Source: Synergistes jonesii
GTDB lineage: Bacteria; Synergistota; Synergistia; Synergistales; Synergistaceae
Assembly (NCBI RefSeq): GCF_000712295.1
Contig: NZ_JMKI01000036.1
Location: 62,001-126,000, forward strand
DNA length: 64,000 bases
Direction of reading: 5' to 3'
Both the position numbers and the translations under genes were made by a program. This document shows, piece after piece, positions 40,426 to 54,226 of this stretch. Every line of letters begins with the position of its first letter. Position 1 is the first letter of the stretch. The notes under the pieces were generated by a model. That model did no database searches. It worked only from the letters and a program-made list of their open reading frames with translations, and was not told where the DNA came from.

Positions 40426-41514
40426 ATGTCTGAGATCAGAAAGACCGACATCCTGGTCGTGGGCGGCGGAGCGGCCGGGCTCAGCGCGGCCGCCGAAGCC
40501 GCCTCCCTGGGCGCGAAAGTCACGGTGCTTGAAAGCGACCTTCATCTCGGCGGGCAGCTTGTAAAGCAGACGCATAAGTTCTTCGGCAGCAAAGACGAAC
40601 ACGCCGGCACCAGAGGCTATAAAATAGCCGATATCATCCTTGACGAAATAAGGGCCTGCGGTGATAAAGTCGAAGCCTTCACAAACACTTCGGTGATAGG
40701 CTATTACAAAAACGACGGGATCGTCACGGTGATGCGCGGCGAAGAGGAGTACTACAAGCTTCTGCCGAAGAAGATCGTAATGGCGACCGGCGCGCAGGAG
40801 CGCATCATCCCCTTCCCGAACAACGACATCCCCGGCGTTTACGGCGCCGGCGCGGTGCAGACGCTGATGAACGTCTACGGAGTGGTCCCCGGCAAGAGAG
40901 TCCTTATGATCGGCGCCGGCAACATCGGCCTCATTGTAAGCTATCAGCTGATGCAGGCCGGCGTTGAGATCGCCGCTGTACTTGAAGCGCTACCGAAAAT
41001 CGGCGGCTACTGGGTCCACGCGGCGAAGATCCGCAGGCTCGGAGTCCCCATCCTTTTGAGACACACAATCAAGGCGGCGCTCGGCGCCGATATGGTCGAC
41101 GGCGCGGTCGTCCAGGATATAGAGACGGGCGAGCTGTCGCACGTCGAATGCGACGTCATCTGCCTCGCGGTCGGACTCACGCCGACGAACGAAATGCTCT
41201 GGCAGGCCGGATGCGAAATGAGATATATCCCACAGCTCTGCGGACACGTCCCCCTTCGCGACCCCAAGCTGCGCACGAGCCACCCCGATATCTGGATCGC
41301 CGGCGACGCGGCCGGAATCGAAGAGGCGAGCTCGGCGATGGTCGAAGGGCGCATCGCCGGGCTTGCGGCGGCGCAGTCCCTCGGCTTTAAGGCCGACGAA
41401 GGCAAATTTGACGAATATCACGAGCGCCTGGCCGCGCTGCGCAGAGGCGAAGCCGGCGAAAAAATCCGCAGCGGCCTCGCTCTGGCGCAGGTCGACGACT
41501 GGAGGGATGAGTAA
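40426..41514 (+). CDS. FAD/NAD(P)-binding subunit of the amino-acid dehydrogenase (alpha/HcnB type)
   Basis: 362-residue pyridine-nucleotide-disulphide-oxidoreductase-like subunit. FAD motif DILVVGGGAAGLSAAAEAASLG (residues 8-29 in two parts), second nucleotide fold VLMIGAGNIGLIVSYQLM (about 160), and TNEMLW...DIWIAGDAAGIEEASSAMVEGRIAG near the end. The Cys pair of true disulphide reductases is absent, as expected for HcnB-type electron-transfer subunits. It would pass electrons from the substrate-oxidising beta subunit through the [2Fe-2S] and ferredoxin subunits. The stop overlaps the next start (TAATG). Confidence 0.9.
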   Translation: MSEIRKTDILVVGGGAAGLSAAAEAASLGAKVTVLESDLHLGGQLVKQTHKFFGSKDEHAGTRGYKIADIILDEIRACGDKVEAFTNTSVIGYYKNDGIVTVMRGEEEYYKLLPKKIVMATGAQERIIPFPNNDIPGVYGAGAVQTLMNVYGVVPGKRVLMIGAGNIGLIVSYQLMQAGVEIAAVLEALPKIGGYWVHAAKIRRLGVPILLRHTIKAALGADMVDGAVVQDIETGELSHVECDVICLAVGLTPTNEMLWQAGCEMRYIPQLCGHVPLRDPKLRTSHPDIWIAGDAAGIEEASSAMVEGRIAGLAAAQSLGFKADEGKFDEYHERLAALRRGEAGEKIRSGLALAQVDDWRDE

Positions 41515-42020
41515 TGGATAACGAGGAGAGACTCTTCAACAGCGGCGTCCTTACGGGCGAACGCAAGGGCGCGGTGCTTCCTCCGAAGGATCTCTGGGAG
41601 AACAAAAAGGGCGGGCTCGTCTTGATCGAATGCCCGCAGCGCATCCCGTGCAACCCCTGCGCTACGAGCTGCCCCAGCGGCGCGGTGAAGCCCTTTGCCG
41701 ACATAAACGACAATCCGGAGATCGATTACGCGAAATGCACCGGCTGCGGCCTCTGCGTCGCGAAATGCCCGGGGCTCGCCTGCTTCGTGATCGACCTGAC
41801 GTTCGCTCCCGGCAGGGCCCTCATAAAGATGCCTTACGAGCTGCTGCCGCTGCCCTCTAAGGGCGACAAGGTGGCGTGCCTCAACAGAATCGGTGAAGCG
41901 GTGACCGAAGGCGTCGTTGAAAATGTGGCGGAACCGCTTAAAGATTCAACAAAAGTTTTGCATGTCTCCTTCGACAGGAAATTCGTCGACCAGGTGCGTG
42001 CGGTAAGGGTGGTGAAGTAG
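41514..42020 (+). CDS. 4Fe-4S ferredoxin-type subunit
   Basis: 168 residues with a ferredoxin fold: IPCNPCATSCPSGAVKPF (about 42-59) and YAKCTGCGLCVAKCPGLAC (about 74-92) give two CxxCxxC-type cluster sites. The C-terminal part is a small beta-rich domain (KMPYELLPLPSKGDKVACLN). In this operon it probably collects electrons from the flavin subunits for transfer to a soluble acceptor, an anaerobic addition not present in the aerobic oxidase versions. Starts within the previous stop codon and is followed directly by the BFD-like gene. Confidence 0.9.
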   Translation: MDNEERLFNSGVLTGERKGAVLPPKDLWENKKGGLVLIECPQRIPCNPCATSCPSGAVKPFADINDNPEIDYAKCTGCGLCVAKCPGLACFVIDLTFAPGRALIKMPYELLPLPSKGDKVACLNRIGEAVTEGVVENVAEPLKDSTKVLHVSFDRKFVDQVRAVRVVK

Positions 42021-42347
42021 ATGTCCTGCTGTGATCACGATCACACTAAAGTCGATTTCAAAAAGATGGAAGATGACATCGTCGTCTGCCGCTGCGAGGA
42101 AATCACCCTCAAGGAGATCCGCGAATGGATAGCGCGCGGTTACGACACCTTTGACGAACTGAAGCGCCTGCTGCGCGTCGGCATGGGCCCCTGCCAGGGA
42201 CGCGGATGCAGGGACATAATCCTTCGCGAGATTTCAAAGCAGACCGGCGTTCCCGTGGCGGACATACCTTCCGGCACGATACGCCCGCCCGTGAAGCCGA
42301 TAAAGTGCGGGCTCGTCGGCGACATTAAAGGAGGGGACTTCGAATGA
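42021..42347 (+). CDS. BFD-like [2Fe-2S]-binding subunit
   Basis: 108 residues with the bacterioferritin-associated ferredoxin-like (Fer2_BFD) motif: VVCRCEEITLKEIREWI (about 23) and GMGPCQGRGCRDIILREISKQ (about 57), giving Cys-x-Cys plus CxxxxC ligands. In many HcnB-type dehydrogenases this module is fused to the flavin subunit. Here it is a free protein, so the usual large subunit is split. The His/Asp-rich start SCCDHDHTK could bind another metal. ATG abuts the previous stop. The stop overlaps the next start by 4 bases. Confidence 0.88.
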   Translation: MSCCDHDHTKVDFKKMEDDIVVCRCEEITLKEIREWIARGYDTFDELKRLLRVGMGPCQGRGCRDIILREISKQTGVPVADIPSGTIRPPVKPIKCGLVGDIKGGDFE

Positions 42348-43510
42348 GCTGGAAGAGAACGGCTGACGCCGTCGTCATAGGCGGCGGCATGATGGGAATG
42401 GCTACGGCCTACTATCTCAAAAAGCTGGGGATGAAAAGCGTAGTCCTGCTGGAAAAGAAGACGGCCGCCTCCGGAGCCACCGGAAGGTGCGCGGCGGCTT
42501 TCAGGGCGACCTGGGGCGGCGAGCTGAATATAATCCTCGGCAAGGCCTGCATCGAAAAATACGAACATCTGTCGGAAGAGCTGGGCATGGACATCGGCCT
42601 TTATCAGAACGGCTACCTCTTCATGGCCTACTCCGACGCGCAGGTCGAAAACTTCAAGAAGTGCATCGAACTGCAGAACTCCCTCGGCGTTCCGTCGAGG
42701 ATGCTCACGCACGACGAAGCGCGCGCTCTCTGCCCGGGGCTCTATACCGACGACATAAAGGGCTTCTACTGGTACAAGCGTGACGGGCACGCCGACCCGA
42801 TGCTCACGAACTTCGCGCACCAGGAGGCTGCAAAGCGCGAAGGCGTCGTCATCGAGAAGTTCACGGAGGTCACGGGCTTCAAAAAGACCAACGACGCGAT
42901 AAAGGGCGTGCGCACGAGCAAAGGCTATATAGACACGGACATCGTCATCAACGCGGCCGGCGCCTGGTCAGGAAAGGTCGCCGCGATGGCCGGGCTCGCC
43001 ATTCCGGTTCACGGAGAGCGCCACGAGATATTCGCGACCGAGCCGGTCGACTTCAACGTCTGCCCGACGTTCCTCATGAGCTACGACCCGGACTTCTACA
43101 TGCAGCAGCGCCCGCACGGCTCGATAATCGCCGGCTGCGGCCCGCACCGTTACCGCCCGGGTGCGGCGCCCTTCGACGACTACGAAATGGGCGACTGCTG
43201 GGACTTCCTCGAACATATGACGGGCATACTGACGCACGTGCTGCCGCGCACGAAGGGCATCCGCGTCGTCAGGCAGTGGTCCGGCATGTACGACATCACG
43301 CCGGACATGCAGCCGGTCATAGGCGAAGCGGACGAGCTGAAGGGCTTCTGGATGAACGTTTCCGGTTCGCGCGGCTTCATGTTCGGCCCCGTCGCCGGCG
43401 AGATGGTGGCCGAGCAGATACTCTTCGGCAAGACTAAGCTTCCAATAGAGAAGTTCCACTGGAACCGCTACGCAAGGGGCGAATATCTGCTTGATACGGC
43501 CATAGCGTAA
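42344..43510 (+). CDS. FAD-dependent amino-acid dehydrogenase, catalytic (beta/DAO) subunit
   Basis: 388-residue DAO-family flavoprotein: ADAVVIGGGMMGMATAYYLKKLG (residues 6-28 in two parts), ASGATGRCAAAFRATWGG for flavin binding, and the C-terminal GFWMNVSGSRGFMFGPVAGE closing the site. It resembles sarcosine oxidase beta, HcnC and D-hydroxyproline/proline dehydrogenase beta subunits, which oxidise secondary or D-amino acids to imines. As the last gene of the five-gene unit it is the probable substrate-oxidising part. Exact substrate is unknown. D-proline, hydroxyproline, sarcosine or glycine-type amines are candidates. Confidence 0.9.
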   Translation: MSWKRTADAVVIGGGMMGMATAYYLKKLGMKSVVLLEKKTAASGATGRCAAAFRATWGGELNIILGKACIEKYEHLSEELGMDIGLYQNGYLFMAYSDAQVENFKKCIELQNSLGVPSRMLTHDEARALCPGLYTDDIKGFYWYKRDGHADPMLTNFAHQEAAKREGVVIEKFTEVTGFKKTNDAIKGVRTSKGYIDTDIVINAAGAWSGKVAAMAGLAIPVHGERHEIFATEPVDFNVCPTFLMSYDPDFYMQQRPHGSIIAGCGPHRYRPGAAPFDDYEMGDCWDFLEHMTGILTHVLPRTKGIRVVRQWSGMYDITPDMQPVIGEADELKGFWMNVSGSRGFMFGPVAGEMVAEQILFGKTKLPIEKFHWNRYARGEYLLDTAIA

Positions 43511-43590
43511 AGGTTTTAAAGGGCGCGCGCTGAAGATGAGAGAGGGCGCATCGATTAGAAAAAGTAATCTATCTAATCAAAACAATCAAT

Positions 43591-43620
43591 TTTACAAATC
43601 TTCAGCGGCGCCCGTATAAT
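43591..43620 (+). promoter_or_regulatory. Promoter upstream of the ornithine cyclodeaminase-family gene
   Basis: TTTACA (43591-43596), 18-base spacer, perfect TATAAT (43615-43620). An inverted repeat GATTAG (43553-43558) / CTAATC (43573-43578) lies just upstream. Confidence 0.65.
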
Positions 43621-43704
43621 ATCCGTAAAGCCCGAGGGGAGAAAACGGCATAGAGGATTTTCCGTCTTGGGCGGCGGTTTTCGGCAACAGGGGAAATATA
43701 TTTT

Positions 43705-43733
43705 TTGACACAAAACAGGAGGTAATTTATAAT
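43705..43733 (+). promoter_or_regulatory. Full-consensus -35/-10 pair overlapping the start codon
   Basis: TTGACA (43705-43710), exactly 17 bases, TATAAT (43728-43733). The -10 box shares bases with the ATG at 43732-43734, and the spacer contains the ribosome site AGGAGGT. If active it would make a transcript beginning inside the gene. It may be a coincidence of AT-rich leader sequence. Confidence 0.4.
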
Positions 43734-44859
43734 GGCTGGTGGTAAGGAAGTAAAAACGCTGCTCCTTTCGCAGGACGACCTTCTCAAGGTCGGCGTTACA
43801 AATATGGCCGATTGCATCGACGTCATCGAAGGCGTCTTCAGCCTTATCGGCAAGGGCGACTATCTGATGGGCGGCCCGCTGCAGAACGAGCACGGGCAGA
43901 TGATTTATTTCCCGGACGAAGAGCGCTTCCCCGGGATGCCGGTGAGCGGGCCGGACCGCCGCTTTATGTCGATGATCGGCTATCTCGGCGGCAAATATAA
44001 GATCTGCGGCGAAAAGTGGTACGGCTCCAACCCCGCTAACACCTCGCGCGGGCTGCCGCGTTCGATATTGACGACGATCCTCAACGACGCCGACACGGGC
44101 GCGCCCTTCGCGATCATGAGCGGCAACCAGATCTCCGCGATGCGCACCGGCGCCGTTCCCGGAGTCATCGCGCGCCATCTTGCGCGCAAGGGCTCGAAGG
44201 TGGTCGGAGTGATCGGCGGCGGCGTAGTCAACCGCGGAGGGCTGCTTGCTATAAAGACGGCGGTGCCGACGATCGAAGAGGCCGTCCTCTACGACATCAA
44301 CCTCGAAAAGGGCAGGAAGTGGGCGGAGGAAGAGAGCAAGGCGCTCAACATCAAAGTCTCCGTCACGACGAATATCGAAGAGGCGATACGTCCCGCCGAC
44401 GTCGTCGCGATAGCTACCGGCGGCAACGTAGTGCCGCGCATCGAGAAGGAGTGGCTCAAGAAGGGCGCGCTGGTGATCTTCACGGGCGACGCCGACTTCG
44501 ATCCCGAGGCCTACTCGGAGAACACCGTCTTCGCGGACAACTGGAAGATGCATCAGGCCTTCATCGCCGACGGTAAAGAGCACCCGAAGGGACTGGAGGC
44601 GGTCTCCGTAGTCGCCCCTTCGTACCATCTGCTACTCGCCATTCAGGCGGGCAAGTTCGATGAAAAGAAAGTCCGTAACCTGGGCGACGTCGTGAACGGC
44701 ATCGACAAGGGGCGCAGCAGCGACGACGAGATCATCATGTTCGTGACGGGCGGCATGCCGCTGCACGACATAGCGTGGGGCAAGACGCTCTACGACCGCG
44801 CGGTCAAAGAGGGGCTCGGCCAGGAGTTCTGCTTCTTCAAGGAAGCTTACTGGAGATAA
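43732..44859 (+). CDS. Ornithine cyclodeaminase / mu-crystallin family protein
   Basis: 375-residue NAD(P)-binding enzyme of the OCD/mu-crystallin fold: N-terminal dimer half with LLLSQDDLLKVGVTNMADCI, AIMSGNQISAMRTGAVPGVI (about 127-146) and Rossmann loop VVGVIGGGVVNRGG (about 156). Relatives include ornithine cyclodeaminase, ketimine and delta1-pyrroline-2-carboxylate reductases; some genomes label close homologues tyramine oxidase subunit B. Following an imine-forming dehydrogenase, an imine reductase such as pyrroline-2-carboxylate reductase is attractive but unproven. AGGAGGT precedes the ATG. A strong terminator follows, so it is a unit of its own. Confidence 0.85.
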   Translation: MAGGKEVKTLLLSQDDLLKVGVTNMADCIDVIEGVFSLIGKGDYLMGGPLQNEHGQMIYFPDEERFPGMPVSGPDRRFMSMIGYLGGKYKICGEKWYGSNPANTSRGLPRSILTTILNDADTGAPFAIMSGNQISAMRTGAVPGVIARHLARKGSKVVGVIGGGVVNRGGLLAIKTAVPTIEEAVLYDINLEKGRKWAEEESKALNIKVSVTTNIEEAIRPADVVAIATGGNVVPRIEKEWLKKGALVIFTGDADFDPEAYSENTVFADNWKMHQAFIADGKEHPKGLEAVSVVAPSYHLLLAIQAGKFDEKKVRNLGDVVNGIDKGRSSDDEIIMFVTGGMPLHDIAWGKTLYDRAVKEGLGQEFCFFKEAYWR

Positions 44860-45126: not shown

Positions 45127-48048
45127 ATGGCATTGAGAAAGATGTGGCTCAAGATAAACGGGGCGAACAGAATGTTCGCCTGCGATCCCGCAAAAGACTC
45201 TTTGGCGGATGTGCTGAGACGCCTGGGGCTCACCAGCGTAAAGGTCGGATGCGGCATAGGCGTCTGCGGCTCCTGCACGGTTCTTCTGAACGGGGAGCTC
45301 GTCAGATCCTGCGCGCGCAAGATGGCGCGCATAGACGAATACAGCGAAGTGACTACGGTCGAAGGGATAGGCACGCCGACTAATCTGCACCCTGTGCAGG
45401 TGGCGTTTATGAACAACGGCGCGGTCCAGTGCGGTTTCTGCACGCCTGGATTTATAGTATCTTCGTACGCGCTGCTGCAGAAAAACGATAATCCGACGCG
45501 CGAAGAGGTGCGCGACTGGTTCCATAAACATAGGAACGTATGCCGCTGCACCGGCTACAAACAGATAGTGGACGCGGTCATGGATGCCGCCAAGGTGGTG
45601 CGCGGAGAGGCCACGATCGACGATATAAAGGTCAAACTTCCCGAAGACAAGGAATATTACGGCAAGCCGCTCGTGCGCCCGACCTCTCTCGCCAAGGTGT
45701 GCGGGCTCGCCGACTACGGCGACGACCAGGAGCTGAAGATGCCCGCCGACACGCTTAAGGTAGCGGTGGTCCAGCCCCGTCTCGCTCATCACGCGAAGAT
45801 TCTTAAGATAGACGCCTCTGAAGCCGAGAAGATGCCCGGTGTGAAGAAAATCATCATGGCCGCGGACCTCAAGGCGGCAGGCGGCTCGAACGTGATGGCC
45901 GAAGCCAACTTCCACGAGCGCAGCACGGTAAGGATTCCCAGCCGCAACGTCCTCGCCGAGGACAAGATCTACCGCTACGGCGATGTAGTAGCGCTCGCGG
46001 TCGCCGACACCAAGGAGCACGCGCGCGCCGCGGCCGCCAAGGTGAAGGTCGAGATAGAAAAGCTTCCGGAGTATCTGAGCTTCCTTGAGGCGGCGATGCC
46101 GGACGCCCAGCGCATCCACGAGGACACGCCCAACATCTTCTGCAAGCAGCCGGTACTCAAGGGCGCCGGCCTCGAAGAGCCGGAAAAGGTGGCGGAGATC
46201 ATCGATAACTCAGCTTACAGCGTCGAAGGCAGCTTCTATTCGTCGCGCGAGCCGCACCTTTCGATCGAAGGCGACTCCGTGCAGTGCTACTTCGACGAGG
46301 ACGGTTTCCTCACGTTCCAGTGCAAATCTCAGGGCGTCTACTCCTCGATCAGCCGCATAGGCACCTGCCTCGGCGTACCGACGTCGAAGCTGCGCGTAAT
46401 GATGAACCCGACGGGGGCGAGCTTCGGCTGGTCGACGAACGCCGGCGACCTCTGCCTGGCGGGGGCCGCGGCCGTCGTTATGAAGGAGCCGGTGGCGCTT
46501 TCGATGAGCTACGAGGAACACCAGCACTTCTCGGGAAAGCGCTGCCCATCCTATTCGAACGGGCGCCTCGCCTGCGACGAGGAGGGAAAGCTGACCGCGG
46601 CGGAATTTGATTTCGGCCTCGACCACGGCGCATACTCGTGGGGCGGCGACGACTGCTTCACAAAGCAGGCGCGCTTCGCCTTCTTCCCCTACTCGATCCC
46701 GAACGTTGCAGGGCTCTGCCGCGTCGCGAACACCAACCACAACTTCGGCACGGCCTACCGCAGCTACGGCTCGCCGCAGGCCTATACACTCAGCGAAGCA
46801 CTCGTCGATATGCTCGCCGAAAAGGCTGGGATCGACCCCTTCGACTTCCGCTACCGCAACATAGGGCGCCCCGGCGATACGAATATCAACAGCTATCCCT
46901 TCCGTCAGTACCCGATGGAAGAGATGATGAACATATTGAAGCCCCTCTACGACAAGGCGGTGGCGGAGGCTAAGGCCGCCGACACGCCGGAAAAGCGCCG
47001 CGGCGTGGGGCTCGCGTGGGGCGGGTTTAACGTAACGGAGGGAGGCACCGACAAATCGGCTGCCGCCATCGAGCTCAACCCCGACGGGACCTTCACGAAG
47101 TACGACACATATCAGGAGCTCGGCCAGGGCGGCGACATCGGCTCGCTGATGCTTACGCTTGAGGCGCTCAAGCCGCTCGGCGTGACGCCGGATATGATCA
47201 AGCTCGTGCAGAACGATACAAAGCTGTGCCCGGACAGCGGCATGTCCGGCGCGAGCCGCACGCACTACATGAGCGGCAAGGCGACGATGAACGCGGCCGA
47301 GCAGCTGATAAACGCGATGAGAAAGCCGGACGGCACGTTCCGCACTTACGAGGAGATGAAGGCCGAGGGCATCCCGACGAAGTACACGGGAAAATGGACG
47401 TGCGCCAGCGTCGAAGGGCTCTGCCGCCTCGACCCCAACACCGGCATAGGAGACCCGAGCCCCTCATACACCTACTGCCTCAACATGGCCGAAGTCGAAG
47501 TCGACACCAAGAGCGGCAAGACGACGGTGCTTCGCTTCAGCTGTGTCGACGACGTCGGCAAGGTGGGCAATCTGGCCGCGGTAAACGGCCAGGCGTACGG
47601 CGGCATTTCGCACAGCATAGGCTTCGCGCTCAGCGAAATATACGAGGATGTGAAGAAACACACCAACATCGCGGCGTGCGGCGTCCCCTACATCAAGGAC
47701 ATCCCCGACGAAATCAACGTCATACACTACCAGCGCCCAGATGAAATCGGCCCCTTCGGCTCCTCCGGCGCTTCCGAAGCCTTCCAGTCGTCCGGACACG
47801 TGGCTGTGCTGAACGCCATCAACAACGCCTGCGGCGTGCGCATCCACGAGATACCGGCGACGCCGGCTAAGGTGAAGGCCGGGCTCGACGCGATAGCGGC
47901 CGGCGGCAGGCCCGAAGAGCCGGCGAAATACTTCCTCGGCTCCGACCTCTACGAAGAGCTCGACGACATAAAGGCCAATCCGGTGAAGTACGAAGGAGAG
48001 CCAGATTTCTTCCGCGCTCTCGGCGACACCACGGAAAAATTCTTCTAA
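45127..48048 (+). CDS. mop: Molybdenum-containing aldehyde oxidoreductase (Mop, xanthine oxidase family)
   Basis: 973-residue single-chain molybdenum hydroxylase like the Desulfovibrio gigas enzyme. The N-terminal plant-type [2Fe-2S] domain has Cys42, 47, 50 and 62. The second helical [2Fe-2S] domain has Cys102, 105, 139 and 141, at the spacing known for D. gigas Mop. There is no FAD domain. The molybdopterin-binding part runs from about 190 to the end (LKVAVVQPRLAHHAKI, TGASFGWSTNAGDL, FGTAYRSYGSPQA). The catalytic Glu is Glu884 in GSSGASEAF. Oxidises an aldehyde or N-heterocycle with water as oxygen donor. First of a seven-gene cluster of maturation- or partner-like genes. A stable hairpin follows it. 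Confidence 0.93.
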   Translation: MALRKMWLKINGANRMFACDPAKDSLADVLRRLGLTSVKVGCGIGVCGSCTVLLNGELVRSCARKMARIDEYSEVTTVEGIGTPTNLHPVQVAFMNNGAVQCGFCTPGFIVSSYALLQKNDNPTREEVRDWFHKHRNVCRCTGYKQIVDAVMDAAKVVRGEATIDDIKVKLPEDKEYYGKPLVRPTSLAKVCGLADYGDDQELKMPADTLKVAVVQPRLAHHAKILKIDASEAEKMPGVKKIIMAADLKAAGGSNVMAEANFHERSTVRIPSRNVLAEDKIYRYGDVVALAVADTKEHARAAAAKVKVEIEKLPEYLSFLEAAMPDAQRIHEDTPNIFCKQPVLKGAGLEEPEKVAEIIDNSAYSVEGSFYSSREPHLSIEGDSVQCYFDEDGFLTFQCKSQGVYSSISRIGTCLGVPTSKLRVMMNPTGASFGWSTNAGDLCLAGAAAVVMKEPVALSMSYEEHQHFSGKRCPSYSNGRLACDEEGKLTAAEFDFGLDHGAYSWGGDDCFTKQARFAFFPYSIPNVAGLCRVANTNHNFGTAYRSYGSPQAYTLSEALVDMLAEKAGIDPFDFRYRNIGRPGDTNINSYPFRQYPMEEMMNILKPLYDKAVAEAKAADTPEKRRGVGLAWGGFNVTEGGTDKSAAAIELNPDGTFTKYDTYQELGQGGDIGSLMLTLEALKPLGVTPDMIKLVQNDTKLCPDSGMSGASRTHYMSGKATMNAAEQLINAMRKPDGTFRTYEEMKAEGIPTKYTGKWTCASVEGLCRLDPNTGIGDPSPSYTYCLNMAEVEVDTKSGKTTVLRFSCVDDVGKVGNLAAVNGQAYGGISHSIGFALSEIYEDVKKHTNIAACGVPYIKDIPDEINVIHYQRPDEIGPFGSSGASEAFQSSGHVAVLNAINNACGVRIHEIPATPAKVKAGLDAIAAGGRPEEPAKYFLGSDLYEELDDIKANPVKYEGEPDFFRALGDTTEKFF

Positions 48049-48072
48049 GAATCGGATAACGACTTGAAGCTG

Positions 48073-48108
48073 TACTTCGGGCCGCATTTTTACACGCGGC
48101 CCGAAGTA
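48073..48108 (+). promoter_or_regulatory. Strong intercistronic hairpin after mop
   Basis: Perfect 13-bp stem (48073-48085 with 48096-48108) and a 10-base loop, in the gap before the accessory genes. No T tract follows, so it more likely protects the mop mRNA 3' end or marks a processing site than acts as a full terminator. Confidence 0.8.
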
Positions 48109-48153
48109 TGCTATAAAAATGTAGGACGACAAACGGCTGCGGGGTGTCTTGAT

Positions 48154-48561
48154 ATGGATGATGAACTGAAGCGGATGTATCAGCTGAAGGTCGAAGGGCT
48201 CTGCTGCTCTTCGATACTTATAGAGATGGGGCTCGAGCTTCGCGGCGAAAGCAACGAGCAGTTCGTCAAGGCGGCGAGGGCCCTCTGCGACGGAATACAC
48301 AGCGGGCTTATCTGCGGCGCTCTGACCGGCGCCGTCTGTATGCTCGCGCTCTTCGACGAGAAAAATATCGAGATGACGAAGGAAATGGCCGACTGGTTCA
48401 CGAACGAGCTCTGCGCAAAGTACGGCTCGGCCGACTGCCGCGCGATAACGCACCTCGCCCCTTACGAAAAAGCGGTCAAATGCCCCGAGATATTGAAGGC
48501 GACATATCTGCGCGCGAAGGAGCTGCTTGAGGAATTCGGTTATATAGAGCCGGGCGGGTAA
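48154..48561 (+). CDS. C-GCAxxG-C-C family redox protein (DVU_1555-like)
   Basis: 135-residue Cys-rich helical protein. The family motif is seen as GLICGALTGAVC (about 54-65), with further cysteines in GLCCSS (about 16), ALC, NELCAKYGSADCRAI and VKCPEI. Such proteins are thought to bind an Fe-S cluster or carry redox-active thiols. ATG 48154 is chosen. An upstream in-frame extension would run through the hairpin that follows mop and is not convincing. It is the first accessory gene after mop and lies 2 bases before the large electron-transfer protein. Function unknown. The linkage to mop is the main clue. Confidence 0.82.
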   Translation: MDDELKRMYQLKVEGLCCSSILIEMGLELRGESNEQFVKAARALCDGIHSGLICGALTGAVCMLALFDEKNIEMTKEMADWFTNELCAKYGSADCRAITHLAPYEKAVKCPEILKATYLRAKELLEEFGYIEPGG

Positions 48562-48563
48562 CC

Positions 48564-50831
48564 ATGGACGAGACTGTAAAAAATCAGATCAGAAACTGCT
48601 GCCTGGAAAAGGAGGCCGCTCCCTGCGTATCGGCCTGCCCCTTCCATTTCGACGTGCGCGGATTTATTCCAAAGGCCGGCCGCGGAGCGTTCAACTTAGC
48701 CTACAGGGCCTACGCGAACGCCGTAGCCTTTCCGCGAATAGTTTCCCAGATATGCGGCGAACCCTGCCGCGCCGGCTGCCCGCTTAAAGACAGGGGCGGC
48801 GCGGTAAACCTCAAGCTTATCGAGCAGGCCGTCGTAAAATCAGCGACGCGCACGGCGCCGAACAGCTACAATCTGCCCGCGAAGGGGAAAAGAATCGCGG
48901 TGATAGGCGGCGGCGCTGGCGGCCTGGCGTGCGCGCTGCACCTGTGCAACAAAAAGTATGACGTCACGGTTTACGAAAAGACGGAGAGGCTCGGCGGGCG
49001 GCTGTGGGAGACGCTCTCCCCCGACATCTTTTTAAAGGATATAGCGGAGCAGTTTTCCAAAGAAAAATACGAGCTCCTCCTCGGCCGCGAGATAGGGGAG
49101 ATCGGCGAAATAAGAGAGAAGTTCGACGCTGTGTACGTCGCCACCGGCAGAGGCGGCGAAAGCTTCGGGCTCTTGAGGGCTTGCGAAATGCGCGAAGCCT
49201 CGGCCTCTTCTCTCGACGGGGTATTTCTCGGCGGCGCGCTGCTCGGCGCCTCCCCCGTCGAGGCGATAGCGCAGGGCGCGGCGGCGGCAGGGCTCATCGA
49301 AGGCTACCTTAAAACCGGAATTGCGAAAAGCGCTGAGCCGCACCCACCCACGAGGATAAAATTGAACCTCGACGGCGTTGAGACAAAGCCGGAGCTCCTC
49401 CCCGCCTCTTCCGACGGCTACAGCGGGGAGGAAGCCGCGGCGGAGGCGCTGCGCTGCATCAGATGCCGCTGCGATTCTTGCGTCCGCGCCTGCGACATGA
49501 TGGCGTATTTCCAGAAATTCCCCAAGCTGATCGAGGAAGAGGTACACATCACGATATACCCCGGCACGCTCGACGGCAACGGCACGGTGGCGACGCGCCT
49601 CATCTCCACATGTAATCAGTGCGGGCTCTGCGGCAAAGTCTGCCCGGAAAAGATCGACGTGGGGCTTTTCATGAGGGAAAGCCATATAGCGATGCGCGAA
49701 AAGAAGGCCATGCCGTGGGCCTTCCATGAATTCTGGCTCAACGACATGGATTTCTCGCGCTCGGAGCGCGCGCAGTTCTTTTACACGCCCGCAGGCAAAT
49801 GCGCCTATTTGTTCTTCCCCGGCTGCCAGATGGGCGCGTCGAACCCGGATTATGTCACTAAGACATACGCGCTTTTGCGGGAGCTCGCCGGCCCCTGCGC
49901 CGTTTACGTCACTTGCTGCGGCGCGCCGGCGCTGTGGGCAGGCGACAAAGGCGTTTATGAAGGCATCTGCGGCGAACTGAAGGATAAATGGCGCAGCTGT
50001 GGCGAGCCGGAGATCATCTTCGGCTGTCCTACGTGCAGGGAGATGATGAACCGCCACCTGCCGGAGATGAAGGGCAGGATGCTCTCCGACCTGCTCTGGG
50101 AGCTGGGGGCGAAGATCCCCGACGCGCACGGCGCGGAGGTGTCGCTTTTCGACCCCTGCTCGGCGCGCGACTTTCCCGAGACGCAGAGGAACGTGCGCGC
50201 TCTGCTCTCCTCCGCGGGATACGTCTTGAGCCCGCTGGAATATGAAAAAGAGCGCGCGAAATGCTGTTCGTGGGGCGGACAGATCTCGATAGCGAATCCC
50301 CCCTACGCGAGGTGGCTCGTGGAAAAACGGCTCTCGGAGGGAGAGGCGCCGTACGTCGTCTACTGCACGAACTGCCGCGACGTCTTTGCCGACGCGGGCA
50401 AGCCGGTGCGGCACATCCTCGACCTGCTCTTCGGGCTGGAGAGGGAGGGGCGCACGCCGACGTACAGCAAAAGGCGCGACAACCGAGAAGAGGTGAAGAG
50501 GCTTTTGACAAAGGAACTGCTCGGCATGGAACTGCCCGAAAAAGAGAAAATCCCGCTTTTTATTTCGCCGGAGCTCGAAGCTAAGATGAACAGGGACAGG
50601 ATACTCGAAGAAGACGTCGCCGCCGTGATCGCTTTCTGCGAAAAGACGGGAAGAAAGCTGGTCGACGAGCGGGGGCATTTCATCGGATACAGCGAGATCG
50701 GACATATCACCTGCTGGGCCGAATATTCGCCGGAAAAAGACGGCTACAGGGTGCATAACGCGTATCCGCACCGTATGAAGATAGAGCTTGAAGAGGTGTG
50801 GCATGGAAGAAAAACCAAAGCTGACTTGTAG
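48564..50831 (+). CDS. Large flavin/iron-sulphur/CCG-domain electron-transfer protein (DVU_1558-like)
   Basis: 755 residues with several modules. An N-terminal GltD-like Fe-S region (CLEKEAAPCVSACPFHFDVRG, two motifs, and ICGEPCRAGCPLKDRGG, about 13-75). An FAD fold (RIAVIGGGAGGLACALHL, about 108). A dicluster ferredoxin (CIRCRCDSCVRACDM about 294; CNQCGLCGKVCPEK about 350). Two HdrB-like CCG domains (TCCGAPALW about 453; KCCSWGGQ about 570). The C-terminal part is soluble (LFISPELEAKMNRDR). It looks like a hub passing electrons between a nicotinamide or flavin donor and Fe-S partners, probably the electron acceptor for Mop. Overlaps the next gene by 29 bases. Confidence 0.85.
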   Translation: MDETVKNQIRNCCLEKEAAPCVSACPFHFDVRGFIPKAGRGAFNLAYRAYANAVAFPRIVSQICGEPCRAGCPLKDRGGAVNLKLIEQAVVKSATRTAPNSYNLPAKGKRIAVIGGGAGGLACALHLCNKKYDVTVYEKTERLGGRLWETLSPDIFLKDIAEQFSKEKYELLLGREIGEIGEIREKFDAVYVATGRGGESFGLLRACEMREASASSLDGVFLGGALLGASPVEAIAQGAAAAGLIEGYLKTGIAKSAEPHPPTRIKLNLDGVETKPELLPASSDGYSGEEAAAEALRCIRCRCDSCVRACDMMAYFQKFPKLIEEEVHITIYPGTLDGNGTVATRLISTCNQCGLCGKVCPEKIDVGLFMRESHIAMREKKAMPWAFHEFWLNDMDFSRSERAQFFYTPAGKCAYLFFPGCQMGASNPDYVTKTYALLRELAGPCAVYVTCCGAPALWAGDKGVYEGICGELKDKWRSCGEPEIIFGCPTCREMMNRHLPEMKGRMLSDLLWELGAKIPDAHGAEVSLFDPCSARDFPETQRNVRALLSSAGYVLSPLEYEKERAKCCSWGGQISIANPPYARWLVEKRLSEGEAPYVVYCTNCRDVFADAGKPVRHILDLLFGLEREGRTPTYSKRRDNREEVKRLLTKELLGMELPEKEKIPLFISPELEAKMNRDRILEEDVAAVIAFCEKTGRKLVDERGHFIGYSEIGHITCWAEYSPEKDGYRVHNAYPHRMKIELEEVWHGRKTKADL

Positions 50832-50997
50832 CAGATGCGGCGTCGAACTTGAGATGCACAAGGCGTTCTTCAGCTACCTGGAGCATTCCTTCAGCACAGA
50901 AGTGCTGCGCTGCCCCGTCTGCGGGCAGGTCTTCATCCCCGAAAGCCTCGCTAGGGGCAAGATGGCGCAGGTGGAGGTATCTATAGAGGATAAGTAA
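50803..50997 (+). CDS. Small zinc-ribbon/rubredoxin-like protein (DVU_1557-like)
   Basis: 64 residues with two CxxC knuckles: LTCSRCGVELE (Cys9, Cys12) and LRCPVCGQVFIPE (Cys37, Cys40), so one Zn or Fe site. It ends ARGKMAQVEVSIEDK. ATG 50803 (AGAGGTG upstream) lies inside the end of the previous gene, 29 bases before its stop, which strongly couples their translation. A TTG five codons earlier is an alternative. Matches the small redox protein that accompanies Mop-type clusters. Probably a partner of the large electron-transfer protein or of the radical SAM enzyme. Confidence 0.85.
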   Translation: MEEKPKLTCSRCGVELEMHKAFFSYLEHSFSTEVLRCPVCGQVFIPESLARGKMAQVEVSIEDK

Positions 50998-52323
50998 ATG
51001 AGGCAAAATATGGAAAAGGTCATAAGAAAGACGCGCAGCATCTGCCCGCGCTGCGGGCGCGCGGTAGACGCCTCTGTCGTCGTGCGCAGCGGGGCGACTT
51101 ATCTTGATAAAAGCTGCCCCGAGCACGGCCCCTTCTCCGCAACCATATGGAGGAATAAAAAAAGCATATTCGACTGGTACGGAGACGTCGAGCTACTCGA
51201 CGCGGCCGCGGCGCCGAACTGTCCCTCCGAATGCAGGGAAAACGGGCTCTGCGCGGCCCACAAGAGCGCGACCTGCTGCATCGTGCTCGAAGTGACGGGG
51301 CGCTGCAATCTGCGCTGCCGCTACTGCTTCGCCGCCCCGGACGGCGCGCGCGACAGGCCGGCCGAAGAGATAGTAAAAGAAATAGCCGGCTTTGCAGTCC
51401 CAGGGAAGACGCTCGTCCAGCTGAGCGGCGGCGAGCCGACGCTGCGCGACGACCTGCCCGAAATCACGGCGGCCGCCAAAAAGCTCGGATGCAAATACGT
51501 TCAGCTCAACAGCAACGGAATACGCCTGGCCGAGGACGAGGCCTACGTCAAAGAGCTGGCCGACGCGGGGCTTTCCTTCGTCTTCATGCAGTTCGACGGG
51601 ACGGACGACGAAATCTACGAAAAACTGCGCGGAGCACCGCTCTTCGCTGTAAAGGAGAAAGCCATAGATAATTGCGCCAAATACAACGTCGGCGTCACCC
51701 TCGTGCCGACGATAGTGCGCGGCGTGAACGACGGCGCTATCGGTGGCATACTGCGCTGGGCCGTCTCCAAGTCGCCGAAGGTGCGCGGCGTACACTTTCA
51801 GCCCGCGGCCTACCTGGGGCGCATCCCTAACATACCGGACGACGGCGCGCGCTTTACGCTCGACGAGCTCGTCTGCGCTATAGAAGAGCAGTCCAGCGGG
51901 CTGGTCGAAAGCGGCAGCCTACAGCCCTCGCGCTGCGACCATCCGCTCTGCGGCTTTCACGGCGACTTCGTCGTGCTGGAGGATGGGGGGCTCCACGCGC
52001 TGACGAAAAAGCGCGACGACGCGCCGTGCTGCTGCTGCGGCGTGGAAAACCCTGCCGATAAAAACCGCGAGTTCGTCGGCCGCAGATGGCAGAGGCCGAA
52101 AGAAGAGAACGCCTCCTGCTGCTCCTCCTCTAACGACATGGAAGATATGGATTACTTCCTTTCGCGCATCGCGACGCACGGCTTCACCGTCACCTCGATG
52201 GCCTTTCAGGACGCCGGGAACGTAGACCTCGAACGCCTGCGGATGTGCAGCCTTCACGCGGCCAAAAACGGAAGGCTCGTCCCCTTCTGCGTGAATTACA
52301 TGACGCTCTGGGATCGCGTCTGA
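50998..52323 (+). CDS. Radical SAM protein of the TrsS type
   Basis: 441 residues. An N-terminal knuckle domain (SICPRCGRAVDA, Cys16/Cys19; KSCPEHG, Cys40) precedes the radical SAM core with TGRCNLRCRYCFAAP (Cys103, 107, 110) and LVQLSGGEPTLRDD, the SAM-binding GGE motif. The C-terminal part is very Cys-rich: DAPCCCCGVE has four Cys in a row (344-347) and ENASCCSSSN follows about 25 residues later. Homologues are known in which selenocysteine occurs (the family is called a radical SAM (seleno)protein). No in-frame TGA interrupts this one. The Cys strings may bind extra Fe-S clusters or receive sulphur. Reaction unknown. The start abuts the previous stop, and TGATG links it to the next gene. 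Confidence 0.83.
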   Translation: MRQNMEKVIRKTRSICPRCGRAVDASVVVRSGATYLDKSCPEHGPFSATIWRNKKSIFDWYGDVELLDAAAAPNCPSECRENGLCAAHKSATCCIVLEVTGRCNLRCRYCFAAPDGARDRPAEEIVKEIAGFAVPGKTLVQLSGGEPTLRDDLPEITAAAKKLGCKYVQLNSNGIRLAEDEAYVKELADAGLSFVFMQFDGTDDEIYEKLRGAPLFAVKEKAIDNCAKYNVGVTLVPTIVRGVNDGAIGGILRWAVSKSPKVRGVHFQPAAYLGRIPNIPDDGARFTLDELVCAIEEQSSGLVESGSLQPSRCDHPLCGFHGDFVVLEDGGLHALTKKRDDAPCCCCGVENPADKNREFVGRRWQRPKEENASCCSSSNDMEDMDYFLSRIATHGFTVTSMAFQDAGNVDLERLRMCSLHAAKNGRLVPFCVNYMTLWDRV

Positions 52324-52961
52324 TGAGCTGCCGCGACCTGCCGTCGCCCGGAGGAACGGCCCTTATCGAGCGCGCGCTGGCCATATGCTCCTTTCCTCCC
52401 GGCGCCGCGCTTGCGGACGTAGGCTGCGGCGGCGGAGAGTGCGTCCGCTACCTGAACGAGCGTACGGATTACATGGTATGCGGAATCGACAGCGACCCGG
52501 CCGCGATAGAAAAAGCCTCGGCCCCCGGCCTCGACCTTCGCTGCTGCGGCGCCGAAGAGCCGCCATTCGGCGAGGCGTCGCTCGACGGCATGATTTTCCA
52601 ATGCAGCCTTTCGCTATTTGAAAGGCCGCGGGAGGCGCTCAAAAGCGCCGCGCGCGCGCTGAAAGAGGGGGGAAAGATAATCGTCGCCGACTTTTATTCG
52701 CGCGGGACGGAAGCAAAATTTTCCAGGACGCTCGGCCGCGTCGAAAGAAAAGAGAAAATAATCCTGCGGCTCGAGGAGGCCGGCTTTAAACTCCTCGCCT
52801 TCGAAGACTTCACGCGCGAAATGCGCGAGCTCTGGGGACAGCTGATACTTGACGGCGGCGCGCCCGAAGATCTATTCGGGGAAGGCGCCGCCGAAAAAAT
52901 AAAAGCGGCGAAGTGCGGTTACGGGCTCTTCGTCGCGGAGAAAGGCGGGCGCGGGAAATGA
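52323..52961 (+). CDS. SAM-dependent methyltransferase (DVU_1556-like)
   Basis: 212-residue class I methyltransferase. ATG 52323 overlaps the radical SAM stop (TGATG). SAM-binding motif I is ALADVGCGGGECVRYL (about 33-48), followed by the acidic VCGIDSDPAAIEKA (motif II) and a motif near DGMIFQCSLSLFERPRE. Then comes KEGGKIIVADFYSRG, as in UbiE-like enzymes. It begins with SCRDLPSPGG, which could be a substrate recognition loop. A partner of the radical SAM protein in modifying a cofactor or peptide is plausible. Stop overlaps the next start (ATGA). Substrate not known. Confidence 0.83.
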   Translation: MSCRDLPSPGGTALIERALAICSFPPGAALADVGCGGGECVRYLNERTDYMVCGIDSDPAAIEKASAPGLDLRCCGAEEPPFGEASLDGMIFQCSLSLFERPREALKSAARALKEGGKIIVADFYSRGTEAKFSRTLGRVERKEKIILRLEEAGFKLLAFEDFTREMRELWGQLILDGGAPEDLFGEGAAEKIKAAKCGYGLFVAEKGGRGK

Positions 52962-54226
52962 TTTCCGCTCTTGAGTCTGTAACTTCGGAGATAACGGGCT
53001 TTGAAACGCCGATCGGAGAGAAAGAAATGTCCGAGTGGCAGCTCTCTCAGATACGCGCCGCGATGGAGCGCGCAGCCTCGCACAGCGAAGCTTACGCGAG
53101 GCGCTTTGCCGGCATAGATATAGCGTCGATAGACTCGCCGGCGGCGCTTGAGCGGATTCCCTTCACATATCCGCAGGAGATAATCGACGGCGCCGACGCT
53201 CTTATATGCGTTCCGAGGCGCGACATTTCCCGCGTGACGTCGCTGCCGACCTCCGGCAGCACGGGCGCGCCGAAAAGAATATACTTCACCGAAAAAGACC
53301 TGGCCCGCACGGAGCGTCTCTTCGAGCTCGGCATGGCCCCGATCATAGGAAGGCGCGGCCGGCGCTGCGTCGTCATGATGTCGGACGCAGCTCCCGGCAG
53401 CATGGCGAGCCTTCTTAAAAGCGGCGTCGAAAAAAGCGGCGTGCCGGCAGCCATATACGGCGGGATCCGCGATTTCGACGACGCGGCGCGCTTCCTGCGC
53501 GACGGCGACGTTATAGTCGGCCTCCCGTCGCAGATGATACACCTCTGCCGCAAACATCCGACGCTGCGGCCGGAAAGCGTGCTGCTGAGCGCCGACTACG
53601 TTCCGGCGCCCGTCCCGGGAGCGCTGCGCAAAACGTGGAAATGCCGCGTCTACACGCATTACGGCATGACCGAGAGCTGCTTCGGCTGCGCCGTGCAGTG
53701 CTCGGAAGAGAGTGCGCAGCACATACGCCACGACTCCCTTCTGATCGAGATAATCGACCCCGAGACGGGACGGGCCCTTCCTCCCGGAAAGGAGGGGGAG
53801 ATCGTAGTAACAACGTTCGCCAACGAGGCAATGCCGCTCTTCCGCTATCGCACAGGCGACGTCTCTTCCCTCGTGAGCGGGAAATGCGAATGCGGCAGCG
53901 CACTGCCGCGCCTCGGAGCGGTGCGCGGCAGGCTGAAAAATCTGATAAAGGCAGCCGGAGGCAGCTTTTCAATAGAGTCCATCGACGACGTTTTATACAG
54001 AAATAATGAGCTGTGGCGCTACGACGCTTCGCTAAGAGAAGACGCCCGCGGGAAAATACTGTCGATAACGGCATATGGAGGCAACCGGCTGAAAATCGAC
54101 GATATTTATAACGCGCTGTCGACGATTCTGCCGCGCGAGATAGCCGCGGAGGTCGCGATAACGGACAAGCCATGCCGCGGCGGAGGAAAGCGTCGCATAA
54201 TAGACCGCATCGAAGAGGCAGGATAA
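52958..54226 (+). CDS. AMP-forming acyl/aryl-CoA-ligase-like enzyme (DVU_1553-like)
   Basis: 422 residues, related to PaaK-type phenylacetate-CoA ligases. The P-loop-like ATP motif is TSLPTSGSTGAPKRIYF (about 96-112), then YTHYGMTESCFGCAVQC (about 230-246) with the conserved TE, and FRYRTGDVSSLVSGKCECGS (about 300-319), the CxCGS zinc-type knuckle common in PaaK-like enzymes. It would adenylate a carboxylate and perhaps form a thioester. The ATG at 52958 overlaps the methyltransferase stop by four bases. Last gene of the mop cluster. Together with the methyltransferase and radical SAM protein it suggests stepwise synthesis of a small compound or cofactor. Confidence 0.83.
   Translation: MISALESVTSEITGFETPIGEKEMSEWQLSQIRAAMERAASHSEAYARRFAGIDIASIDSPAALERIPFTYPQEIIDGADALICVPRRDISRVTSLPTSGSTGAPKRIYFTEKDLARTERLFELGMAPIIGRRGRRCVVMMSDAAPGSMASLLKSGVEKSGVPAAIYGGIRDFDDAARFLRDGDVIVGLPSQMIHLCRKHPTLRPESVLLSADYVPAPVPGALRKTWKCRVYTHYGMTESCFGCAVQCSEESAQHIRHDSLLIEIIDPETGRALPPGKEGEIVVTTFANEAMPLFRYRTGDVSSLVSGKCECGSALPRLGAVRGRLKNLIKAAGGSFSIESIDDVLYRNNELWRYDASLREDARGKILSITAYGGNRLKIDDIYNALSTILPREIAAEVAITDKPCRGGGKRRIIDRIEEAG

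Follow-up and report, generated by a model that had tools for sequence, protein, structure and literature searches.

The dicluster/CCG flavoprotein DIC of Synergistes jonesii is, judging from sequence comparisons, probably the redox partner of the Mop-type molybdenum hydroxylase (Mop) encoded beside it. That it is a dedicated partner of this Mop with an end of the heterodisulphide reductase (Hdr) type is a tentative proposal, for which the chances appear nearly even. Both genes lie in the window, by which we mean the whole stretch of 64,000 nt that was analysed (contig NZ_JMKI01000036.1; Table 1). According to this proposal, the two substrate electrons would leave Mop via its two 2Fe-2S clusters and enter DIC, which would supply the flavin that Mop lacks in comparison with xanthine oxidase. 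The electrons would cross the Fer4_20 clusters, the FAD and the dicluster ferredoxin and reach paired non-cubane clusters of the HdrB type, held by the CCG domains. There they would reduce a two-electron acceptor, in the simplest case a disulphide. The small CxxC protein of the DVU_1557 family would be part of the Mop-DIC unit, and TrsS, the methyltransferase, the ligase and the C_GCAxxG_C_C protein would jointly serve all copies by making or modifying something for them.

Table 1. Operon of DIC in the window and domains of the DIC protein (all coordinates refer to the window).
Feature	Coordinates	Strand	Match or residues
Mop-type molybdenum hydroxylase (two 2Fe-2S, Mo-pterin domains), predicted partner	45127..48048	+	NF045668, 1153 bits (cut-off 1100)
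C_GCAxxG_C_C protein, DVU_1555 family	48064..48561	+	NF045669, 115.4 bits (cut-off 103)
DIC, 755-aa dicluster/CCG flavoprotein	48564..50831	+	NF045663 diclust_near_Sec, 773.9 bits (cut-off 530)
DIC: Fer4_20 (DPD/GltD domain)	48597..48848	+	Pfam, residues 12-95, 60.6 bits
DIC: FAD-binding half of GltD/NfnL fold, NAD(P)H-binding insert absent	48885..49337	+	
DIC: dicluster ferredoxin (HdrC-like position)	49446..49658	+	Pfam 4Fe-4S dicluster, residues 295-365
DIC: CCG domain 1 (C421, C451, C452, C488, C491)	49806..50048	+	Pfam, residues 415-495, 33.7 bits (cut-off 20.6)
DIC: CCG domain 2 (C532, C567, C568, C601, C604)	50136..50393	+	
DIC: C-terminal domain, seen only in the DIC family	50541..50783	+	about residues 660-740; invariant W718, Y734, H736, R737
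Small CxxC...CPxC protein, DVU_1557 family	50788..50997	+	NF045645, 84.7 bits (cut-off 60)
Radical SAM protein TrsS	50998..52323	+	NF045646, 490.5 bits (cut-off 490)
DVU_1556 family methyltransferase	52245..52961	+	NF045667, 181.4 bits (cut-off 155)
DVU_1553 family AMP-dependent (PaaK-like) ligase	52913..54226	+	NF045666, 364.3 bits (cut-off 300)

DIC is a full-length member of the NCBIfam family NF045663 (pyridine nucleotide-disulfide oxidoreductase/dicluster-binding protein): residues 6-741 matched positions 5-758 of the 759 positions of the model, and no difference was seen. The family is named but uncharacterised, and the DIC protein of the window is a new member. In the open-licence literature searched we found neither a function for the family nor a paper on it, and no paper containing the family names; one proteomics paper contains the locus tag. 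YgfK of E. coli (TIGR03315) is likewise a GltD-like Fe-S flavoprotein and is associated with molybdenum hydroxylases. The identification of DIC as YgfK was rejected (83.7 bits, cut-off 835.3), as was its identification as LdhH (46.9 bits, cut-off 800) or TfrB (37.3 bits, cut-off 385).

From a scan of genome contigs we took the best 80 of 496 loci, which held 83 DIC genes and came from Synergistetes, Firmicutes, Bacteroidetes, Desulfobacterota, an Anaerolinea and a Holophagaceae MAG. Conservation was followed in an alignment of 75 rows, consisting of the window and 74 of these 83 genes; three genes without the N-terminus, two that failed the filter and four of odd length were left out. A second alignment contained 19 rows from the phylum of the window, the window included. 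From the N- to the C-terminus, DIC consists of Fer4_20, the FAD half of the GltD fold, the dicluster ferredoxin, CCG 1, CCG 2 and the C-terminal domain. A preliminary description of the sequence had assigned an FAD fold, Fe-S regions and two CCG domains to this one polypeptide, and the Pfam matches, the invariant cysteines and an AlphaFold model bore this out. All modules it named exist, but the C-terminal domain had been overlooked.

The Fer4_20 residues C13, C21, C25, C64, C68, C72 and E87 were present in 75/75 rows (best 80 of 496 loci). In the same rows the spacing between C13 and C21 was always seven residues, free of cysteine in 74 of them; the GltD protein of the same genome has a cysteine where DIC lacks the usual second cysteine of the first Fer4_20 cluster. 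Because the gap contains no cysteine, unlike in this GltD, the ligands of the first cluster are probably unusual. The FAD/NAD Rossmann fold was matched in Pfam only at its start (residues 110-150), and about 150 residues of the NAD(P)H-binding Rossmann domain are missing in comparison with the GltD of the genome and with a relative from locus L169. The counterpart of residues 108-258 was 132-186 aa long in the 75 rows and 143-155 aa long in the 19 phylum rows. Of the features of GltD and NfnL, DIC thus has Fer4_20 and the FAD-binding fold and lacks the NAD(P)H-binding Rossmann domain, so that the earlier label "GltD-like" holds for the first two only. Since the NAD(P)H domain was absent from all 75 aligned sequences (best 80 of 496 loci), the NADH-linked activity considered in the preliminary description is unlikely and found no support.

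The dicluster ferredoxin showed more variation. C298, C301, C303, C306 and C360 were invariant in the 75 rows (best 80 of 496 loci), and the four remaining positions varied: nine rows had Ser in place of C310, and a few rows had lost more. That a few relatives among these loci lack ligands of the second dicluster site was counted against both the partner role and the Hdr-type end. The C-terminal domain had no Pfam match over the cut-off and no NCBIfam match besides NF045663, its profile found no PDB chain better than E 0.19, and fold searches with the whole protein listed no matches over it. Folding this domain alone without an alignment resulted in a useless model (pLDDT 42.1). When its profile was run against 10 genomes, 23/23 hits fell into open frames of 742-816 aa, which were DIC genes. 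No relative was confirmed in viral contigs, a BFVD fold search gave nothing at E≤0.001, and there is no sign of a viral or mobile feature.

Structure prediction had been named as a check of the early domain assignment, and its outcome agreed with that assignment. The AlphaFold model made from the 75-row alignment (pLDDT 94.0, pTM 0.89) aligned over residues 13-321 with subunits of the NfnA/StnC type and over residues 413-632 with HdrB and LutA. Nfn-type subunits ranked first in Foldseek. By VIA-align, residues 13-319 superimposed on 9bov_A with Z 30.9 (290 residues, 2.6 Å), and 8oh5_C and 9n5u_A gave Z 30.6 and 30.1; NfnL (5jfc_L) reached Z 24.1 over 236 residues. The large subunits of NfnABC/StnABC (9bov_A, 8oh5_C, 9n5u_A) share with DIC the Fer4_20 domain, the FAD fold and then an RC..C.C motif, with Z near 30 for some 300 residues, but DIC lacks the NAD(P)H domain and HdrB-like modules replace the remainder. 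The segment of residues 413-632, which spans both CCG domains, matched HdrB (8rvy_B) with Z 17.6 (216 residues, 2.8 Å). As in HdrB/HdrC, a dicluster ferredoxin is followed by two full CCG motifs and the HdrB fold; in contrast, DIC is one chain and has a GltD-type FAD in place of HdrA. To our knowledge, bacteria of this kind are not expected to have the methanogen thiol cofactors.

In flavin-based bifurcation, one flavin splits an electron pair between a high- and a low-potential acceptor; DIC contains an NfnA-type FAD fold. We consider it improbable that DIC is a one-chain bifurcating machine of the Nfn/Hdr type fed by Mop. In such a machine the NfnL-type FAD, having lost NAD(P)H as donor, would split the Mop electrons; the low-potential branch would run over Fer4_20 to ferredoxin, and the high-potential one would use the HdrC-like dicluster to reach the disulphide site of the HdrB-like part, an arrangement of branches that appears equally improbable. 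If it were true, the crystallised Desulfovibrio aldehyde oxidoreductase would be half of an energy-conserving complex.

An 870-aa GltD-dicluster-CCG protein from an ArsS arsenosugar locus (L169:8957-11566) has the same module order as DIC. It differs in retaining the NAD(P)H domain and in having no C-terminal domain, and its 20-kb locus contains no Mop. Its gene lies near those for ArsS, a rhodanese and arsenosugar glycosyltransferases, and the NF045663 equivalog model includes it (544 bits, cut-off 530). In a simple history, Mop would have replaced NAD(P)H as the source of electrons for DIC.

The paired CCG arrangement of DIC also resembles that of EtfD (9ojn; Z 20.0, 332 residues), which has a dicluster as well, and of LutA (9a6l; Z 19.5, 206 residues). 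Both fit the DIC model at least as well as HdrB, and we counted this against the Hdr-type end. DIC might accordingly be the partner of Mop with CCG clusters that merely conduct as in EtfD/LutA, with no disulphide chemistry, a role we think rather unlikely; passage of single electrons to ferredoxin, flavodoxin or the CxxC protein, as this role implies, is to the same degree doubtful. No special acceptor would be needed, since aldehyde oxidation is strongly reducing. The ligands of the CCG domains argue against mere conduction. CCG 2 as a fragment scored 19.4 bits, just under the Pfam cut-off of 20.6, but it shows the full pattern C-x34-CC-x32-C-x2-C with five invariant cysteines; two such motifs arose in only 2 of 5000 shuffles of DIC. 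Loss of CCG cysteines in homologues, which the preliminary description had named as evidence that would count against it, was not seen: all ten were kept in 75/75 rows (best 80 of 496 loci) and in 19/19 phylum rows, with the window in each. The accessible text of a study on EtfD states that in EtfD one CCG cysteine has become Thr and the other cluster is completed by a His, which renders it non-catalytic, and that Hdr keeps the full set (PMC13083937). Both marks of such a conduit, the Thr for a CC cysteine and the His cap, were absent from 75/75 DIC rows (best 80 of 496 loci), with His at 489-490 or 602-603, between the CxxC cysteines, in 0/75. EtfD is, in the part of the source available, also described as membrane-bound and short of one CCG cysteine, whereas DIC shows no membrane segment (top 19-residue hydropathy mean 1.48). 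Because the ten cysteines are kept and the EtfD-type His is absent, the ligand set of DIC is Hdr-like. It fits catalytic, open non-cubane clusters, as far as sequences go, without proving them.

The link to Mop comes from the gene neighbourhood. Among the 51 DIC loci in which each flank was 3 kb or longer (best 80 of 496), 47 had Mop adjacent on the same strand; three of the other four had a Mop within 10 kb and one (L114) had none. Together with the DIC genes flanking 29/30 Mop of Desulfobacterota, this supports, at the level of gene order, the partnership with Mop assumed in the preliminary description. Because DIC usually adjoins a Mop of the Desulfovibrio type, it probably carries the electrons of Mop away. 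The DVU_1557-like gene came next after DIC in 64/75 cases (best 80 of 496 loci). Genes that we named by eye as XdhC-like (e.g., L074:18195-19070) or molybdopterin-binding-like (e.g., L066:20315-21340) occurred in 16/80 and 7/80 DIC neighbourhoods, respectively (best 80 of 496).

In the window, all six neighbours of DIC in the operon scored over the NCBIfam cut-offs, Mop and TrsS barely, and the gaps ranged from -79 to +15 bases by longest ORFs. For the C_GCAxxG_C_C gene and the DVU_1557-like gene, the ATG codons at 48154 and 50803, respectively, are likelier starts than those of the longest ORFs. The best PDB matches of the window Mop were 1dgj/1sij. In the DVU_1557-like protein C14, C17, C42, C45, E63, E67 and K69 were kept in 85/85 relatives, and the C-terminal tail is invariant; its PDB matches were weak (E 0.0086 and above), and a rubredoxin-like protein and a zinc ribbon were indistinguishable. 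A hairpin with a perfect 13-base inverted repeat (48073-48108; -40.5 kcal/mol for the folded RNA, z -4.5) is located after the stop codon of Mop and before the start that follows. A long hairpin of unrelated sequence was seen by eye just after Mop in 6/7 relatives; perhaps it stabilises the transcript and so allows an excess of Mop to be produced. TrsS of the window has no in-frame stop, and TrsS of seven relatives from the phylum (G041, G053, G039, G081, G104, G121, G050) has one in-frame TGA, presumed to be a selenocysteine codon.

Occurrence was also counted in a phylum sample of 149 genomes, of which 31 had DIC (28 over the cut-off), 55 Mop, 27 TrsS and 42 the C_GCAxxG_C_C family. TrsS and DIC occurred together in 25 genomes, TrsS alone in 2, DIC alone in 6 and neither in 116. 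Several observations were counted against the partner role: Mop often occurs without DIC (in 26 of the 55 genomes with Mop in this sample), DIC lacks a Mop at hand in a few cases (L114, G161:C50), and a second Mop-TrsS locus of genome G030 has no DIC. Only one of the 26 Mop genomes without DIC had TrsS. In a tree of 128 Mop rows (FastTree, long branches flagged), the DIC label required 5 changes compared to 39.4 in shuffles. One clade gathered 42 solo Mop, although some "solo" labels reflect contig ends, as for L155. Seven positions were group-specific between the 42 Mop of this clade and 79 DIC-linked Mop (1vlb 87, 222, 458, 479, 520, 711 and 768); they do not cluster near the Fe-S domains, and no docking surface on Mop was found among them.

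Copy numbers were determined in 20 genomes chosen by hand from the best 80 of 496 loci. Four partial rows of G167 were merged into two genes, and a 274-bit partial DIC of G160 was left out, as were six Mop and six TrsS rows below the cut-off. A Mop was located less than 1.6 kb away on the same strand for 39/42 DIC, and 41 of the 46 Mop over the cut-off had a DIC less than 3 kb away. Eleven genomes contained 2-5 DIC genes, and TrsS over the cut-off was found once in six of these, twice in four and not at all in one. The rule of one TrsS per genome, true for 27/27 TrsS genomes of the phylum sample (single match in each), thus does not hold everywhere. Candidatus Formimonas warabiya (G149) had five DIC, six Mop over the cut-off and one TrsS. 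Pairwise distances of Mop and DIC were strongly correlated (r 0.911 for 73 pairs, best 80 of 496 loci; largest value of 999 permutations 0.209). For the 38 pairs with TrsS, the coefficients were 0.923 (Mop-DIC), 0.590 (Mop-TrsS) and 0.613 (DIC-TrsS). Co-inheritance of an operon alone raises the Mop-DIC correlation, which we counted against the partner role.

These numbers also bear on a function in maturation or activation. DIC would then act on its own Mop by reducing or rebuilding a persulphide, a modified cofactor or the Mo site, which we regard as unlikely; it would act together with TrsS, the methyltransferase, the ligase and the C_GCAxxG_C_C protein and carry no turnover electrons, which is likewise unlikely. 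The radical SAM, methyltransferase and ligase families next to DIC, and the rarity of TrsS without DIC in the phylum sample, are in line with such a function. However, DIC multiplies with Mop (up to 5 copies) whereas TrsS stays at 0-2 over the cut-off in the 20 chosen genomes, Mop-DIC distances track far better than Mop-TrsS distances, and the Mop genomes without DIC imply that Mop as such matures without DIC. Judged by copy numbers and distance correlations, DIC looks like a component of the enzyme unit, and TrsS with its neighbours like a service set used in common.

The substrate of the window Mop may differ from that of the known aldehyde oxidoreductases. Q99, C137, C139, Y535 and E869 are kept, and the Fe-S cysteines were checked. 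Positions 425/494/497/626 are T/G/D/E compared to F425, F494, L497 and L626 in the D. gigas enzyme, of which we take F494, L497 and L626 to be pocket residues. Benzaldehyde is sandwiched by F425 and Y535 in that enzyme, according to the accessible text of the structural study (PMC4726530). The pocket string T-G-D-E-Y-E was present in 40/79 DIC-linked Mop rows and F-F-L-L-Y-E in 29/30 Mop rows of Desulfobacterota; because DIC occurs with either of the main pocket types of Mop, it is not bound to a single substrate. Upstream of Mop are SoxA-like, ferredoxin, SoxB-like and OCD/mu-crystallin genes and an SSF transporter, and a TRAP transporter is encoded downstream. In L036 and L172, the genes at 40426-44859 (SoxA-like FAD protein, ferredoxin, SoxB-like DAO, then ornithine cyclodeaminase/mu-crystallin) show synteny with the Mop cluster; they form a candidate amine-oxidising path feeding Mop. 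Based on the pocket residues, the SoxA/SoxB-like neighbours and the transporters, a simple aldehyde seems no likelier as the substrate than an amine-derived or cationic compound. The window Mop lacks the aromatic-aldehyde pocket and so may act on something other than a simple aldehyde, and the aldehyde oxidation assumed in the preliminary description is doubtful, as the aromatic-aldehyde enzyme has another substrate pocket.

These neighbours are also relevant to the direction of electron flow. It is very unlikely that DIC feeds low-potential electrons into Mop and makes it a reductase, perhaps acting on an activated acid made by the ligase. An AMP ligase is indeed part of the operon, and enzymes of the xanthine oxidase family are able to run reductively, as does 4-hydroxybenzoyl-CoA reductase. 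Yet the amine-oxidising genes and transporters nearby suggest catabolism, and the operon unit contains no gene for a low-potential donor.

The proposed partnership of DIC and Mop extends to the textbook enzymes of Desulfovibrio. In D. vulgaris Hildenborough, Mop is DVU_1559 and the DIC gene would be DVU_1558. Mop was found in 35/395 genomes of Desulfobacterota, and the 1.5-kb flank contained DIC in 29 of the 30 Mop loci fetched, the exception being L201. These Mop proteins have up to 93% identity to the crystallised 1dgj and up to 76% to 1vlb. The crystal sequences 1dgj and 1vlb fell into a clade with 27 other Mop rows, of which 26 carried the DIC label, which was given to all 30 Desulfobacterota rows including L201, where no DIC was seen, and one was a "solo" row at a contig end. 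The electron acceptor of the D. gigas enzyme was "proposed to be a flavodoxin", in the words of the accessible text (PMC3877041), and the available part of another paper reports a chain from Mop over flavodoxin and cytochrome c3 to hydrogenase (PMC6274584). As this part also describes that in vitro the electrons of D. gigas Mop reached flavodoxin without DIC (PMC6274584), we counted it against the partner role.

Many proteins that match the model of the Mop aldehyde oxidoreductase have a different, acidic pocket, which makes their action on simple aldehydes questionable. The D. gigas aldehyde oxidoreductase is a structural model for the xanthine oxidase family, and its acceptor has only been proposed. 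DIC provides one concrete candidate gene and protein for the electron exit of Mop, with the crystallised enzymes belonging to the DIC-bearing clade. If DIC is the partner of Mop, this would fill a long-standing gap in the electron exit of the Desulfovibrio-type enzyme.
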